Source: Schumannella luteola (GTDB lineage: Bacteria; Actinomycetota; Actinomycetes; Actinomycetales; Microbacteriaceae). Taken from it: DNA of 64,000 bases. The stretch spans positions 1,860,001 through 1,924,000 of the forward strand of contig NZ_JACBZY010000001.1 of NCBI RefSeq assembly GCF_013408685.1, given 5' to 3'. Numbering within the stretch: the stretch's first letter is position 1; each line of letters starts with the position of its first letter. Shown piece after piece: positions 50,267 to 56,109 of this stretch. The notes beneath the pieces are model-generated. The model was given only the letters and a program-made list of their open reading frames with translations, did not search any database and was not told the DNA's origin. The translations under genes were made by a program, and so were the position numbers.

Positions 50267-53200
50267 TCAGCTCTGCACGCCGGCTCGCGTGGTCGAGCGC
50301 GCGGCGGCCGGCGCGGTGACGCTGATCGGCACCGTGGTGCTGGCGCGCACGCCGTCCGCATCCTCGACCGTGATCGTCGCCGTCACGACGCCGGGCTTCA
50401 CGAAGGTGTGCGACCCCGAGACACCGTAGGTGGGGGCTCCGTCGTCGCCGACGCCGAGCGGCGCGACGGTTCCGGCGACCTGCGTGGAGCCGTCGCCCCA
50501 GTCGATCGTGGCCGTGTACGACGAGGCCGCCGACGCGTCACCGTGCGCGACCGTCGCGAGCACGCCCTCGAACACCGCGCCGGCGGTCGCCGCGATACCC
50601 GTCGCCGGGGTCGCGGTGACCGGCGGCACCGGGCGCTGCAGGGCGACATCGTCGACCCAGCCGCGCAGGTAGCCGACCTTGTCGGCGTCGCCGCCGTGGG
50701 TGTGCGGCGCGAACGACAGCAGCAGCGCATCCACCGTCTTGCCGACGACGGAGTCGGGCAGCTCGGCGGTGACGCGGTTCCAGGTGTCGACCTTGAGCGC
50801 CTTCCCCTGGGCGGCCGCGGTCAGGGCCGCGCCGTTGGAGGCCGTCGGGGCGTCGGCGCTGAGCAGCGTGCCGTCGGTGAAGCGCACGTCGACCGCGACG
50901 TCGGCGCTCGCATCCTGCACATAGTCGCCGAACGGTCCGCCGTCCTGTTGCGGACGCACCCAGTAGGAGAGCGTGTCGCCCTTCTGCACGGCGGTCTTCG
51001 AGGCCGAGAGGTCGAGCAGCACGTTCGACGCCGTCGCGCCCTCCTTCGTGCCGCGGCCCGAGTAGACGACCGAGGCCGTGCCGCTGTGCGGGTCGCCGGT
51101 CTGAACCTTGCTCTCCGGACCGGTCAGACCGCAGCAGTAGCCGCCCACGCCGTCGTTCGTCACGACCTGGCTGGCCGGCGCCTGCGGCTGCCCCGCCTCG
51201 AAGCCGCTGCCGGCGAGGTCGCTCACCTGCGCCGCGACCGTGACCGTCACCTTCTGCGTCGCGAGCGTCTGCGTGCCGGCCTTCACCGTGACGGTGACCG
51301 TGTGGTCGCCGATCGCGGTGTCGGCGGCGGCGCGCAGCGTGACCGCGGCATCCCCGGCTCCCGTGCCGTCGAGGGCGATGGTGCCGGATGCGGGGCTCGC
51401 GCTGATGCCCTCGGCGCCCTCGACCGTCCAGGTGACGGGCGACGAGTCGGCCTGGTCGATGCGCTGCACGTGCACCTTCACCGGATCGGTCGTGCCGCCC
51501 GGCGCCGCCGAGAGGTTCGACGGCACGATCGACGCGAGGTGCGAGCGCTCGCCGTCGCGCACCGACGGCGGGGCGTCGGACTCGGCGGTGCCGCGCGTCG
51601 TGTTCGGCGTCGCCGACAGCGTGTAGTCGATCTGGGTGTCGCGGGTGATGGCCGCCGCATCCAGGTAGACCTTCGAGGTCTTCGTGCCGTCGACCTTCAT
51701 CGACTGGATGTAGGGCTTGTCAAGACCCGCACCGGGCGAGGAGAGGTGCAGCACGGGGCCGCTCGCGCGGTGCAGCACGATCTCGGGGAACAGCGGCGTC
51801 GCGGTCGCGAGCTCGGCCCGCGAGGGGTTCTGCGGGTAGATGCCCATCGCGGCGAACACGAGCCACGACGACATCTGACCGAGGTCGTCATTGCCGGGGA
51901 TGCCGTCGGGGCCGTTCGGCTGGCCGTCCTCCGTGTCGATCCAGAGCTGGCGGATCGTCTCGCGCACCGTCTCCTGCGTCTTCCACGGCTGACCCGCGTA
52001 GTCGTAGAGCCAGGGCGTGCCGATCGACGGCTCGTTGTCGACGTTGGCATGCAGGTTGGTGTCCCACGAGCCGCCCGCGAGCGTCCACTCGTTCGGCACG
52101 CCGTTGCCGTTCTCGTCGCCGACCTCGTGGAAGAAGGCGTCGAGACGCTTCGCCGCCGCCTCCTTGCCGCCCATCGCGGCGAACAGACCGGCCGGGTCGT
52201 GCTGCACCATCCACGTGTACTGCGCCGCGGTGCCCTCGACGAAGCCGTCGCTCGAGGCCGGGTCGAAGCCCGACTTCCACGATCCGTCGGCGTTGCGGCC
52301 CTGGATGTAGCCGCCGTGGTCGGTCGCCTGCGGGTTGAACTGGTTCTGCCACGACTGCGAGCGCGTCGTGAACTCGGTGTAGTCCTTCGTCAGGCCGAGG
52401 TGCTGCGCGAGCTGGGCGAGGCCGGCGTCGGCGGCGCCCATCTCGAGGGTCTCGTTCGGGCATCCCCAGGCGTTGCAGCCCTCGGGGTAGTAGCCGTACT
52501 TCAGGAACTGGTCGAGCGAGGGGCGCTGCCCGACGACGGCGATGTTCCAGCCGGCGCGCGAGAGGTCGTCCTCCGTGGGAACCCGGGCGGCCTGCGCGAG
52601 CGAGGCGTAGGAGCCCTTCACGTCGAAGTCGGTGCCGCCGAAGGCGACGATGCCGGCGAGGGCCGCGGCCGAGGGGTCGCCGACCATGACGTGGGTCGTG
52701 CCGGAGTTGTGGGTCCAGCGATCCCAGACGCCGCCGTTCTGGTCGGCCTGGTTCTTCAGCGACTGGGCGACGTCGCTGCCGCGCTTCGCGTCGAGCAGCG
52801 TGACGAGCTGCACCTGCGAGCGGTAGACGTCCCAGCCCGAGAAGGTCTGGTACTGCGCCTGCTGGCCCTTGGTCAGCTTGTGCGTCGCGAGGTCCATGCC
52901 GGTGTACTCGCCGGTCACGTCGTTGGCGATCGAGGGGTGCAGCAGCGAGTGGTACAGCGCCGTGTAGAAGGTCGTGCGCTCGGCTGCGGTGCCGCCGCCG
53001 GTGCGGATGCGGTTGAGCTCGGTGTTCCAGGCGGCCTTGGTCTGCTTCGCGACCTGGGCGCGCGTGGTGCCGACCGGGTTCTCGGTCGCGAGGTTCTTCT
53101 TCGCGCCCGCGAGGTCGACGTAGCTGATGCCGACGCGCATGTTCACGCTGCGGCTCTTCGACGTGTCGAAGCTGACGTAGCCGCCCGAGCCCTTGCCGGC

Positions 53201-54079
53201 CGGCGGGTAGCCGCCGGGGTAGGTGGTGCCGCCCTGGGCGCTCGTCGAGCCGGGGGTGAGCGCCGCATCCTGCCAGGTTCCGGTCGTGGTGAAGTCGGTG
53301 TCGAACTCGGCCACGAAGTGCACGGTGTAGTAGCTCTTCTGCAGGATTCCGTCGCCGGTGAAGCCGCCGCAGAAGTTGCCGCTCGTGACCGAGCCCGTGA
53401 TGCGGCGGTGCTTCGCGTCGATCTGGATGTCGGCATCGCTCGATCCGACGAGCGAGTCGGAGGTGCGCACGAGCATCGTCGCGGGCGAGCCCTTCGGGTA
53501 GCTGAAGGTGCCGGATCCGGTGCGGGTGGTGGCGGCGAGCTTCACGCCGACGCCGTTGTCGAGGTCGACCGCGTAGCTGCCGGGCGAGGCGCTCTCGCGA
53601 GCGTGCGAGAACGTCGTCGTCATCGGCGTGCCGGCGGCGTCGGCGGCCGACGGCGAGGTCGTGACCTGCTGGGTGATCGGCAGGAAGGGGATGTCGCCGC
53701 TGAGCCCGGCGCAGCCGGCGCCGGAGACGTGGGTGAGCGAGAAGCCGCGCACGGTGTTCGCGCCGTACTCGTAGCCGCTCGGGCTCGGGGTGCGCATGGT
53801 GCCGTCGCTGCGCTTGGTGCTCTGGTCGGGACTCCAGCCGAGCATGCCGAAGGGGGCGACCGCGCCGGGGAAGGTGTTGCCGGCGTTCGCCGTGCCGATG
53901 AACGGGTCGACGGTCGCGGCCGGGTTGGTGATCAGCGTCGTCGCGGCCTCGGCGGGTGCGGGGACCGTGGCGAGCGCTCCGGCGGCGGCCATCGCGAGGG
54001 CGAGACCACCGGCGAGCGCGGTGCGCGTGACGCGGGTGGCGGGGGATGACGTGGTGGGTGCTGGCACGACCTGCTCCAT
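50267..54079 (-). CDS. Secreted GH92 alpha-mannosidase with accessory beta domains
   Basis: 1270 residues. Signal peptide ~17-46 (ALAGGLALAMAAAGALATVPAPAEAA). GH92 catalytic region (~50-800): VDPFIGTANAGNTFPGAVAP start, FSLTHVSGAGCAGLSGDIPF, the candidate acid Glu in VEGTAAQYTWM and the Asp pair in GNDDLGQMSSW. Then two accessory beta domains and a C-terminal PKD-like repeat (TIDWGDGSTQVAGTV ... GSHTFVKPGVVTATITVEDADG). GH92 enzymes are Ca-dependent exo-mannosidases acting on fungal, plant or host N-glycans. No sortase or membrane anchor, so probably released. A 14-bp palindrome 41 bp upstream looks like a LacI-family operator. Confidence 0.92.
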   Translation of the reverse strand: MEQVVPAPTTSSPATRVTRTALAGGLALAMAAAGALATVPAPAEAATTLITNPAATVDPFIGTANAGNTFPGAVAPFGMLGWSPDQSTKRSDGTMRTPSPSGYEYGANTVRGFSLTHVSGAGCAGLSGDIPFLPITQQVTTSPSAADAAGTPMTTTFSHARESASPGSYAVDLDNGVGVKLAATTRTGSGTFSYPKGSPATMLVRTSDSLVGSSDADIQIDAKHRRITGSVTSGNFCGGFTGDGILQKSYYTVHFVAEFDTDFTTTGTWQDAALTPGSTSAQGGTTYPGGYPPAGKGSGGYVSFDTSKSRSVNMRVGISYVDLAGAKKNLATENPVGTTRAQVAKQTKAAWNTELNRIRTGGGTAAERTTFYTALYHSLLHPSIANDVTGEYTGMDLATHKLTKGQQAQYQTFSGWDVYRSQVQLVTLLDAKRGSDVAQSLKNQADQNGGVWDRWTHNSGTTHVMVGDPSAAALAGIVAFGGTDFDVKGSYASLAQAARVPTEDDLSRAGWNIAVVGQRPSLDQFLKYGYYPEGCNAWGCPNETLEMGAADAGLAQLAQHLGLTKDYTEFTTRSQSWQNQFNPQATDHGGYIQGRNADGSWKSGFDPASSDGFVEGTAAQYTWMVQHDPAGLFAAMGGKEAAAKRLDAFFHEVGDENGNGVPNEWTLAGGSWDTNLHANVDNEPSIGTPWLYDYAGQPWKTQETVRETIRQLWIDTEDGQPNGPDGIPGNDDLGQMSSWLVFAAMGIYPQNPSRAELATATPLFPEIVLHRASGPVLHLSSPGAGLDKPYIQSMKVDGTKTSKVYLDAAAITRDTQIDYTLSATPNTTRGTAESDAPPSVRDGERSHLASIVPSNLSAAPGGTTDPVKVHVQRIDQADSSPVTWTVEGAEGISASPASGTIALDGTGAGDAAVTLRAAADTAIGDHTVTVTVKAGTQTLATQKVTVTVAAQVSDLAGSGFEAGQPQAPASQVVTNDGVGGYCCGLTGPESKVQTGDPHSGTASVVYSGRGTKEGATASNVLLDLSASKTAVQKGDTLSYWVRPQQDGGPFGDYVQDASADVAVDVRFTDGTLLSADAPTASNGAALTAAAQGKALKVDTWNRVTAELPDSVVGKTVDALLLSFAPHTHGGDADKVGYLRGWVDDVALQRPVPPVTATPATGIAATAGAVFEGVLATVAHGDASAASSYTATIDWGDGSTQVAGTVAPLGVGDDGAPTYGVSGSHTFVKPGVVTATITVEDADGVRASTTVPISVTAPAAARSTTRAGVQS

Positions 54080-54254: not shown

Positions 54255-55859
54255 TCAGTCGCGGAAGGTGTCGATCGAGGCGCCGAGCGACACGAGGCGC
54301 TCCTGCAGCCCCTCGTAGCCGCGGGCGATGATGTCGACGTTGCGCAGCACGCTCTCGCCCTTCGCCGCGAGCATCGCGAGCAGGATCACGACAGCGGGGC
54401 GCAGCGCCGGCGGGCAGCTGACCTCGGCGCCGGAGAGGTGCGCCGGCCCGCTGACGTCGAGCCGGTGCGGATCGCGCAGCGTGACGCTTGCACCGAGGCG
54501 GGTGAGGTCGAGCAGGTGGATCGCTCGGCCCTCGTAGACCCAGTCGTGCACGAGCGTCGTGCCCTCGGCCATCGCGGCGATGATCACGAAGAACGGCAGG
54601 TTGTCGATGTTGAGGCCGGGGAACGGCATCGCGTGGATCTTGTCGATCGGCGCGCGCAGCTTCGAGGGGTGCACCGTGATGTCGACGAGGCGGGTGCGGC
54701 CGTTCGCCGCCGGGTACTCCTCGCTCACGTCGAAGACGAGGCCCATCTCGGCGAGCGTGGCGAGCTCGATCTCGAGGAACTCGATCGGCGCGTGCGTGAC
54801 GGTCAGCGTCGACTCGGTGACGATGCCGGCGGTGAGCAGGCTCATCGCCTCCACCGGGTCCTCGCTCGGCCAGTAGTCGACATCCGCGCGGATCTCGCTC
54901 TGCCCGGTGACGCGCAGGGTCGTCGTGCCGATCCCCTCGATGCGGATTCCGAGCAGCTCCAGGTAGAAGCAGAGGTCCTGCACCATGTAGTTCGGGCTGG
55001 CGTTGCGGATGACGGTCTCGCCGTCGTGCGCCGCGGCGGCGAGGATCGCGTTCTCGGTCACGGTGTCGCCGCGCTCGGTGAGCACGATCGAGCGGGTGGT
55101 GCGGCCGTCGCGGGCGACCTTCACGTCGTACCAGCCGGCCTGCGCATCCACGCCGACGCCGAAGGGGCGCAGCGCGATGAGGTGCGGCTCGACTGTGCGG
55201 GTGCCGAGGTCGCAGCCGCCGGCGTAGGGCAGGCGGAAGCTGTCGAAGCGGCCCGAGAGCGGCCCGAGGAACATGAGCACGCTGCGGGTGCGGCGGGCGG
55301 CGTCGGCGTCGATCGCGTCGAGGCGCAGCTCGGCGGGGGCGATGATCTCGAGGGTCTCGCCGTCGGCGCTCCAGGTGACGCTCGCGCCGAGGCTGCGTAG
55401 CACGTCGATGATGCGGTCGACCTCGACGATGCGCGCGACCTTGTGCAGGCGGGTGACGCCGCGGTTGAGCAGTGCGGCGCAGAGCAGGGCGACGGCGCCG
55501 TTCTTGCTCGAGTTGACCGCGATCGATCCGCTGAGCTTGCGGCCGCCCTGCACGCGCAGGTGCGAGCGCTGCGGGGCGCCGCCGATCGAGACGAGCTGCT
55601 GGTCGAGCGCGCCGCTGATGCGGGCGAGCAGCTCGAGGCTGAGGTTCTGGCCGCCCTGCTCGATGCGGTTGACGGCGCTCTGGCTGGTGCCGACGCGCTC
55701 GGCGAGCTGGGCTTGCGTGAGACCGCGGCCCTGACGGGCTCCGCGGATGAGGGCGCCGACCTCGCGCAGCGGGGCGCTGGGGGTGACGGCGATCGACCCG
55801 GTGGGAGTGGGATCGAGGGCGGGGGAGTCGGACGGGGTGAGCGTGGTGGTGTCGGTCAC
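54255..55859 (-). CDS. XRE helix-turn-helix fused to MurA-like enolpyruvyl transferase
   Basis: 534 residues from a GTG; TACGAT (55866-55871 on the minus strand) lies 6 nt upstream, a leaderless pattern that sets the start. Residues ~31-91 are an XRE helix-turn-helix (LREVGALIRGARQGRGLTQA; SQSAVNRIEQGGQNLSLELL). Residues ~100-534 are the EPSP-synthase/MurA fold: K119-N120 in NSSKNGAVALL, C216 in YAGGCDLGTRTVEPH at the position of MurA Cys115, and PFPGLNIDN for the Asp loop. It could make UDP-GlcNAc-enolpyruvate and sense or regulate, or be a second MurA. A canonical murA probably lies elsewhere. Confidence 0.85.
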   Translation of the reverse strand: MTDTTTLTPSDSPALDPTPTGSIAVTPSAPLREVGALIRGARQGRGLTQAQLAERVGTSQSAVNRIEQGGQNLSLELLARISGALDQQLVSIGGAPQRSHLRVQGGRKLSGSIAVNSSKNGAVALLCAALLNRGVTRLHKVARIVEVDRIIDVLRSLGASVTWSADGETLEIIAPAELRLDAIDADAARRTRSVLMFLGPLSGRFDSFRLPYAGGCDLGTRTVEPHLIALRPFGVGVDAQAGWYDVKVARDGRTTRSIVLTERGDTVTENAILAAAAHDGETVIRNASPNYMVQDLCFYLELLGIRIEGIGTTTLRVTGQSEIRADVDYWPSEDPVEAMSLLTAGIVTESTLTVTHAPIEFLEIELATLAEMGLVFDVSEEYPAANGRTRLVDITVHPSKLRAPIDKIHAMPFPGLNIDNLPFFVIIAAMAEGTTLVHDWVYEGRAIHLLDLTRLGASVTLRDPHRLDVSGPAHLSGAEVSCPPALRPAVVILLAMLAAKGESVLRNVDIIARGYEGLQERLVSLGASIDTFRD

Positions 55860-55865
55860 AGCGCG

Positions 55866-55948
55866 ATCGTAACTCGCATGTGAGATATCGACCGGCCCAT
55901 CCGCTTGCTTTCCGGGTCTGCACTCAGATTTCATTCTCAGATATGAGA
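55866..55948 (-). promoter_or_regulatory. Promoter and inverted repeats upstream of the HTH-MurA gene
   Basis: TACGAT (-10, 55866-55871, minus strand) lies 6 nt before the GTG. Further upstream lie TGAGATATC near 55880 and TCTCA-GATA-TGAGA (55935-55948), which share the TGAGA word and may be sites for the XRE domain of the encoded protein itself. Inference only. Confidence 0.45.
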
Positions 55949-55980: not shown

Positions 55981-56109
55981 TCAGCCGCCGATCACGTGGG
56001 CGAGCGCGGTCGCCACGATCACGACGATGCCGAGCGCCAGCGGCACGAGCATCGCCTCGGGCGAGTTCTGCAGGTCGGCGCGGCGCAGCTGCGCGAGGAA
56101 GCGGGTCAT
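55981..56109 (-). CDS. Small single-pass membrane protein
   Basis: 42 residues; the start ATG at 56109 has a good ribosome binding site (GAGGAGA, 6 nt upstream). A charged N-terminal ~20 residues (TRFLAQLRRADLQNSPEA) precedes one membrane helix (MLVPLALGIVVIVATALAHVIGG). Family unrecognised. It lies 40 nt downstream of a lipoprotein gene on the same strand and may be cotranscribed with it. Confidence 0.6.
   Translation of the reverse strand: MTRFLAQLRRADLQNSPEAMLVPLALGIVVIVATALAHVIGG

Follow-up and report, generated by a model that had tools for sequence, protein, structure and literature searches.

An XRE-MurA fusion, widespread in Actinomycetia, is predicted to repress its own gene

The self-regulating 'trigger enzymes' PutA, BirA and NadR combine metabolic and repressor functions in one polypeptide, but we know of none for MurA or for the EPSP-synthase superfamily. 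BzdR, a repressor in which an XRE helix-turn-helix (HTH) is fused to a shikimate-kinase-like C-terminal domain, is a non-catalytic sensor. UDP-GlcNAc causes MurA to close, UDP-MurNAc is able to hold it, and the catalytic residues of the E. coli enzyme are Lys22-Asn23, Cys115, Arg91, Arg120, Asp305, Arg331, Arg371 and Arg397. The ligand to which BzdR responds is benzoyl-CoA (PMC6079105). For S. coelicolor SCO5998, 'MurA2', published accounts give a promoter that depends on SigB and a predicted DmdR1 site, and name the product as a putative UDP-GlcNAc transferase (PMC12161575, PMC8346170); an HTH, an operator or self-regulation does not figure in the passages concerned. Enzymes that regulate themselves are already known, as are XRE-enzyme fusions such as BzdR. 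An HTH-fused self-regulating MurA is apparently undescribed, as none was found in a literature search that covered few subscription journals. Here we describe a fusion of an XRE domain and a MurA-type domain which, as judged by sequence comparison, is quite probably a catalytically competent, deeply diverged MurA that also represses its own gene.

The fusion gene occupies 54255..55859 on the minus strand of the window (the whole stretch of DNA that was analysed, 64,000 nucleotides), with a GTG start at 55859 and a stop at 54255 according to the open reading frame call, and encodes 534 amino acids. The preliminary description had read it as an XRE HTH fused to a MurA-like enzyme, and profile searches agree. 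An XRE-type HTH domain spans residues 33-90 (55590..55763, minus strand), within which Pfam HTH_3 matches residues 38-86 (1.6e-12, 47.7 bits against a cut-off of 23), and Pfam EPSP_synthase matches residues 103-522 (8.4e-42); alignment with canonical MurA and an AlphaFold model delimit the MurA-type enolpyruvyl transferase domain as residues 99-534 (54258..55565, minus strand). The model has a mean pLDDT of 84.8, and the linker between the domains (residues 92-95) is of low confidence. Among the NCBIfam profiles, the MurA subfamily PRK09369 scores 303.4 bits, above its cut-off of 297, the murA equivalog TIGR01072 scores 291.9 bits, below its cut-off of 392.7, and the HTH resembles that of the BzdR-type PRK08154 (1.4e-8). 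The GTG start is supported because the closest relative (L005, 98% identity) has no in-frame start upstream of the equivalent position and because a conserved operator and -10 element, described below, lie 10 bp ahead of it. An alternative upstream start, the ATG at 55934, was rejected as it is absent in L005.

The model superimposes on E. coli MurA (1uae) with a Z of 47.4 and an rmsd of 1.9 over 410 residues, at a sequence identity of about 28%. Retention of the Lys-Asn pair and of the reactive Cys, claimed earlier, could be confirmed and extended to the catalytic arginines and aspartate: K119/N120, C216, R192, R221, D419, R445, R487 and R513 are invariant in 99 aligned orthologues, and C216 is kept in 103 out of 103. 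The fusion differs from E. coli MurA by its N-terminal XRE domain, by falling into a separate long-stemmed clade and by its nucleotide site. Here the E. coli loop K160-A165 is replaced by ERGDTV, invariant among the orthologues, such that GDT stands for the UDP-site residues S162-V163-G164, and the equivalent of D369 is not conserved (A485 in the fusion according to the alignment). Given this loop and the lost D369, the substrate preference of the fusion could differ where a canonical MurA coexists, as is the case here. A UDP loop unlike that of canonical MurA would also fit an enzyme that uses a different acceptor for enolpyruvate, in the way NikO uses UMP, with the HTH controlling the corresponding pathway, and NikO is indeed among the structural matches (Z 42). 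However, MurA structures match better, no pathway cluster is found, the neighbouring genes are not conserved, and genomes in which the fusion is the sole MurA require the MurA reaction; we consider this reading very unlikely.

Whether the genome encodes a second murA had been raised as a check. A search of the source genome (3.75 Mb, one contig) identified a canonical murA at C1:1756141-1757436, with 425 bits and above the murA cut-off. This coexistence, the altered yet invariant nucleotide loop, the missing D369 equivalent and the BzdR-type HTH would suit a MurA fold that acts as a sensor only, i.e. a dedicated transcription factor that, similar to BzdR, would recognise UDP-GlcNAc, PEP or some related metabolite and catalyse nothing. 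But where BzdR has a shikimate-kinase-like domain, the fusion has an EPSP_synthase/MurA domain with its catalytic residues kept, and these are invariant among the orthologues. Moreover, many genomes lack any other MurA and yet have murB, which makes the sensor-only reading quite unlikely. In the family that contains genome G269, identified as Nocardioidaceae because its member falls next to Aeromicrobium in the tree, a MurA scoring above the TIGR01072 cut-off is missing in 45 of 61 genomes, 38 of these 45 contain a full-length fusion, eight of the 38 being single-contig, and the fusion is the only MurA detected in 11 out of 20 named genomes, with the provision that draft assemblies could conceal a second copy. 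Nocardioides pinisoli, Aeromicrobium massiliense, Mumia quercus, Rarobacter faecitabidus and Pseudoclavibacter sp. CFCC 11306 are among the latter, and murB was found in all genomes tested. Since it is the only MurA detected in many genomes that have murB, the fusion probably performs the MurA reaction with PEP and UDP-GlcNAc.

The canonical second MurA of all 16 sampled Nocardioidaceae carriers (L209-L224) has an Asp (GGD) at the position of the fosfomycin-reactive Cys, whereas the fusion always has Cys. This affects drug-target annotation, as it is the fusion lineage that keeps the fosfomycin-reactive residue and the second MurA of these 16 that is of the Asp type. In Paraoerskovia sediminicola a canonical murA (G511:C1:2515043-2516346) is split over two reading frames, being either a pseudogene or a sequencing error, and a fusion is encoded on the same chromosome.

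A scan of species genomes yielded 570 stretches that encode relatives, spread over Actinomycetia, of which 80 named loci from Streptomyces, Nocardioides, Aeromicrobium, Cellulomonadaceae, Geodermatophilaceae, Curtobacterium and others were retained. Whole-genome searches found close orthologues (61-98% identity), with a patchy distribution within the family and order of the source and in eight out of eight sampled genomes of a genus presumed to be Streptomyces. Every relative looked at in detail retains the HTH. In a maximum-likelihood tree the 25 sampled fusions form a single group (100/100) on a long stem, apart from the canonical MurAs, although its exact placement is unsure since long branches meet. 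The fusion is one old clade and no local oddity.

The HTH helices of the AlphaFold model correspond to residues 49-56 and 60-67, and the recognition helix TSQSAVNRIE to residues 58-67 (55659-55688, minus strand). The pattern T-S-Q-S-A-x-x-R-x-E is near-invariant: T58, Q60, S61, R65 and E67 do not vary in 99 orthologues and S59 and A62 are each found in 98. Hence the unconserved recognition residues that would have spoken against a regulator were not encountered. The promoters are similarly constrained. A palindrome TATCTCA-N4-TGAGATA, with at most three mismatches in 14 positions, is present in 99 out of 100 distinct orthologue promoters, mostly with the in-frame start 10-12 bp downstream, and so a conserved operator in the own promoter, a criterion for trigger enzymes, is found for the fusion. 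The exact 10-bp core occurs in 56 out of 102 promoters and in none of 100 rounds of Markov shuffles, and the same operator was recovered in 30 loci that were gathered by the MurA profile instead of the HTH.

In the source genome, the TGAGA-containing repeats that had been noted in the promoter and suggested as targets are real and comprise two putative operators on the minus strand. The proximal one, TATCTCACATGCGAGTTA (55870..55887), spans 18 bp and lies 10 bp ahead of the start codon; the distal one, TCTCATATCTGAGA (55935..55948), is an exact 14-bp site further upstream, the centres of the two being 63 bp apart. Two sites at a spacing of 63-64 bp are also found in L005, L006, L067, L068, L069, L076 and L078, which represent two families and include Curtobacterium and Cellulomonas. 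The distal site is the only exact copy of TCTCAN4TGAGA in the source genome. We dropped this uniqueness as an argument, since about one copy, attributable to chance, also occurs in genomes that lack the fusion; the evidence is the position before the gene rather than the copy number.

The strongest point in favour of the repeats as targets is the co-variation of helix and operator, although two cases are not proof. Aeromicrobium sp. Root495 (L089), the only member with S59T and A62V (helix TTQSVVNRIE), carries the only symmetric operator change, TATCGCA-N4-TGCGATA, and L043, with the only degenerate helix, has no operator in its promoter. Binding of the fusion to the palindrome is a prediction, and one could argue that a different regulator or an RNA element uses the palindrome and that the HTH is vestigial. 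This is highly improbable: the recognition helix is near-invariant, it shifts along with the operator in one lineage and vanishes with it in another, and the site stays with the fusion gene where neighbours vary between genera. An RNA hairpin was rejected because pairing of the arms is lost without compensation, as expected for a DNA site. Taken with the sole-MurA genomes, helix, operator and co-variation strongly support, at the level of comparison, the bifunctional enzyme-regulator proposed in the preliminary description, and the conservation in 99 promoters likewise supports its own-promoter repeats as targets. L043 itself (G194:C1:1261843-1263362) appears to be a decaying fusion, and its reading frame is split.

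A putative -10 element, TACGAT (55866..55871, minus strand), takes its first two bases from the end of the operator. A scan of the upstream region with the sigma-70 consensus found no promoter, hence the assignment rests on cross-species conservation: a TAnnnT element is found 6-8 nt before the start codon and its final T is conserved in 95 out of 99 orthologue promoters. A -10 box this close to the start codon suggests a leaderless transcript, which here would start at 55859. In the mechanism we propose, the XRE domain at the N-terminus, presumably dimeric, would bind TATCTCA-N4-TGAGATA, a sequence that takes up the spacer and the first two -10 bases of the apparently leaderless promoter, and would thereby block RNA polymerase. 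It is this occupation of the spacer and contact with the -10 box that suggests repression by polymerase exclusion rather than activation. In the source genome the second site, six helical turns upstream, could allow cooperative or looped binding. Expression of the gene would then fall as the enzyme accumulates, and, its own promoter being the main target that can be recognised, the enzyme would limit itself.

The earlier proposal also tied transcription to the supply of UDP-GlcNAc or PEP, a part that remains speculative. Conceivably, with a chance somewhat short of even, the ligand state of the MurA domain (UDP-GlcNAc, PEP or UDP-MurNAc) sets the DNA affinity, which would make the protein a feedback sensor of precursor supply. 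This version is attractive given the closure of MurA on UDP-GlcNAc and its retention by UDP-MurNAc, and complexes of the UDP-GlcNAc/UDP-MurNAc type are among the structural matches of the model. That such ligand-set operator affinity couples precursor supply to transcription by what is, in Nocardioides- and Aeromicrobium-type bacteria, the sole and essential MurA, is a tentative proposition, with the balance leaning against it. If true, the enzyme of the first committed step in peptidoglycan synthesis would itself be a ligand-responsive repressor. Irrespective of ligand, this is a widespread and old MurA lineage in which the enzyme carries a DNA-binding domain and its promoter a near-invariant operator, and feedback from enzyme to promoter at the first committed peptidoglycan step becomes testable in S. 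coelicolor and in apparent sole-MurA species.

Gene neighbours of the fusion vary by genus: Streptomyces has acnA, Cellulomonadaceae an IMP-dehydrogenase-like gene and Nocardioides other genes. A function based on operon or neighbourhood was therefore rejected, and the lack of conserved neighbours points to the own promoter as the main target. Near matches to the operator in 1.31 Mb (80 loci) comprise 87 in own promoters, 21 before acnA, which concern a different palindrome, and two elsewhere. The acnA palindrome, TATCTCGATGTCGAGATA, is present in Streptomyces and in the source genome (G000:C1:2792166-2792183 in L203; further in L207, L208 and, in genome G002, L250:2192), and shares its outer 6-bp arms with the fusion operator, which would be consistent with an HTH that governs a wider regulon including acnA. 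However, the palindrome is intact in G002, of the same genus as the source, where no HTH-MurA was detected, by which acnA was rejected as a target, and one-mismatch core sites in the source genome do not exceed the control (22 versus 23 for the reversed pattern). A wider regulon is thus unlikely.

The Streptomyces members are about 67% identical to the fusion, share its HTH and operator and have acnA as neighbour, and from this neighbourhood SCO5998 is probably an orthologue. A Streptomyces-type genome has a one-mismatch operator-like site away from the fusion gene (G248:C1:3396498-3396515, L201), possibly a second target or a chance occurrence. In the window, a possible 42-aa one-helix membrane protein without Pfam match is encoded upstream of the fusion gene (55981-56109), and a large GH92 glycoside hydrolase gene lies downstream (50267-54079).
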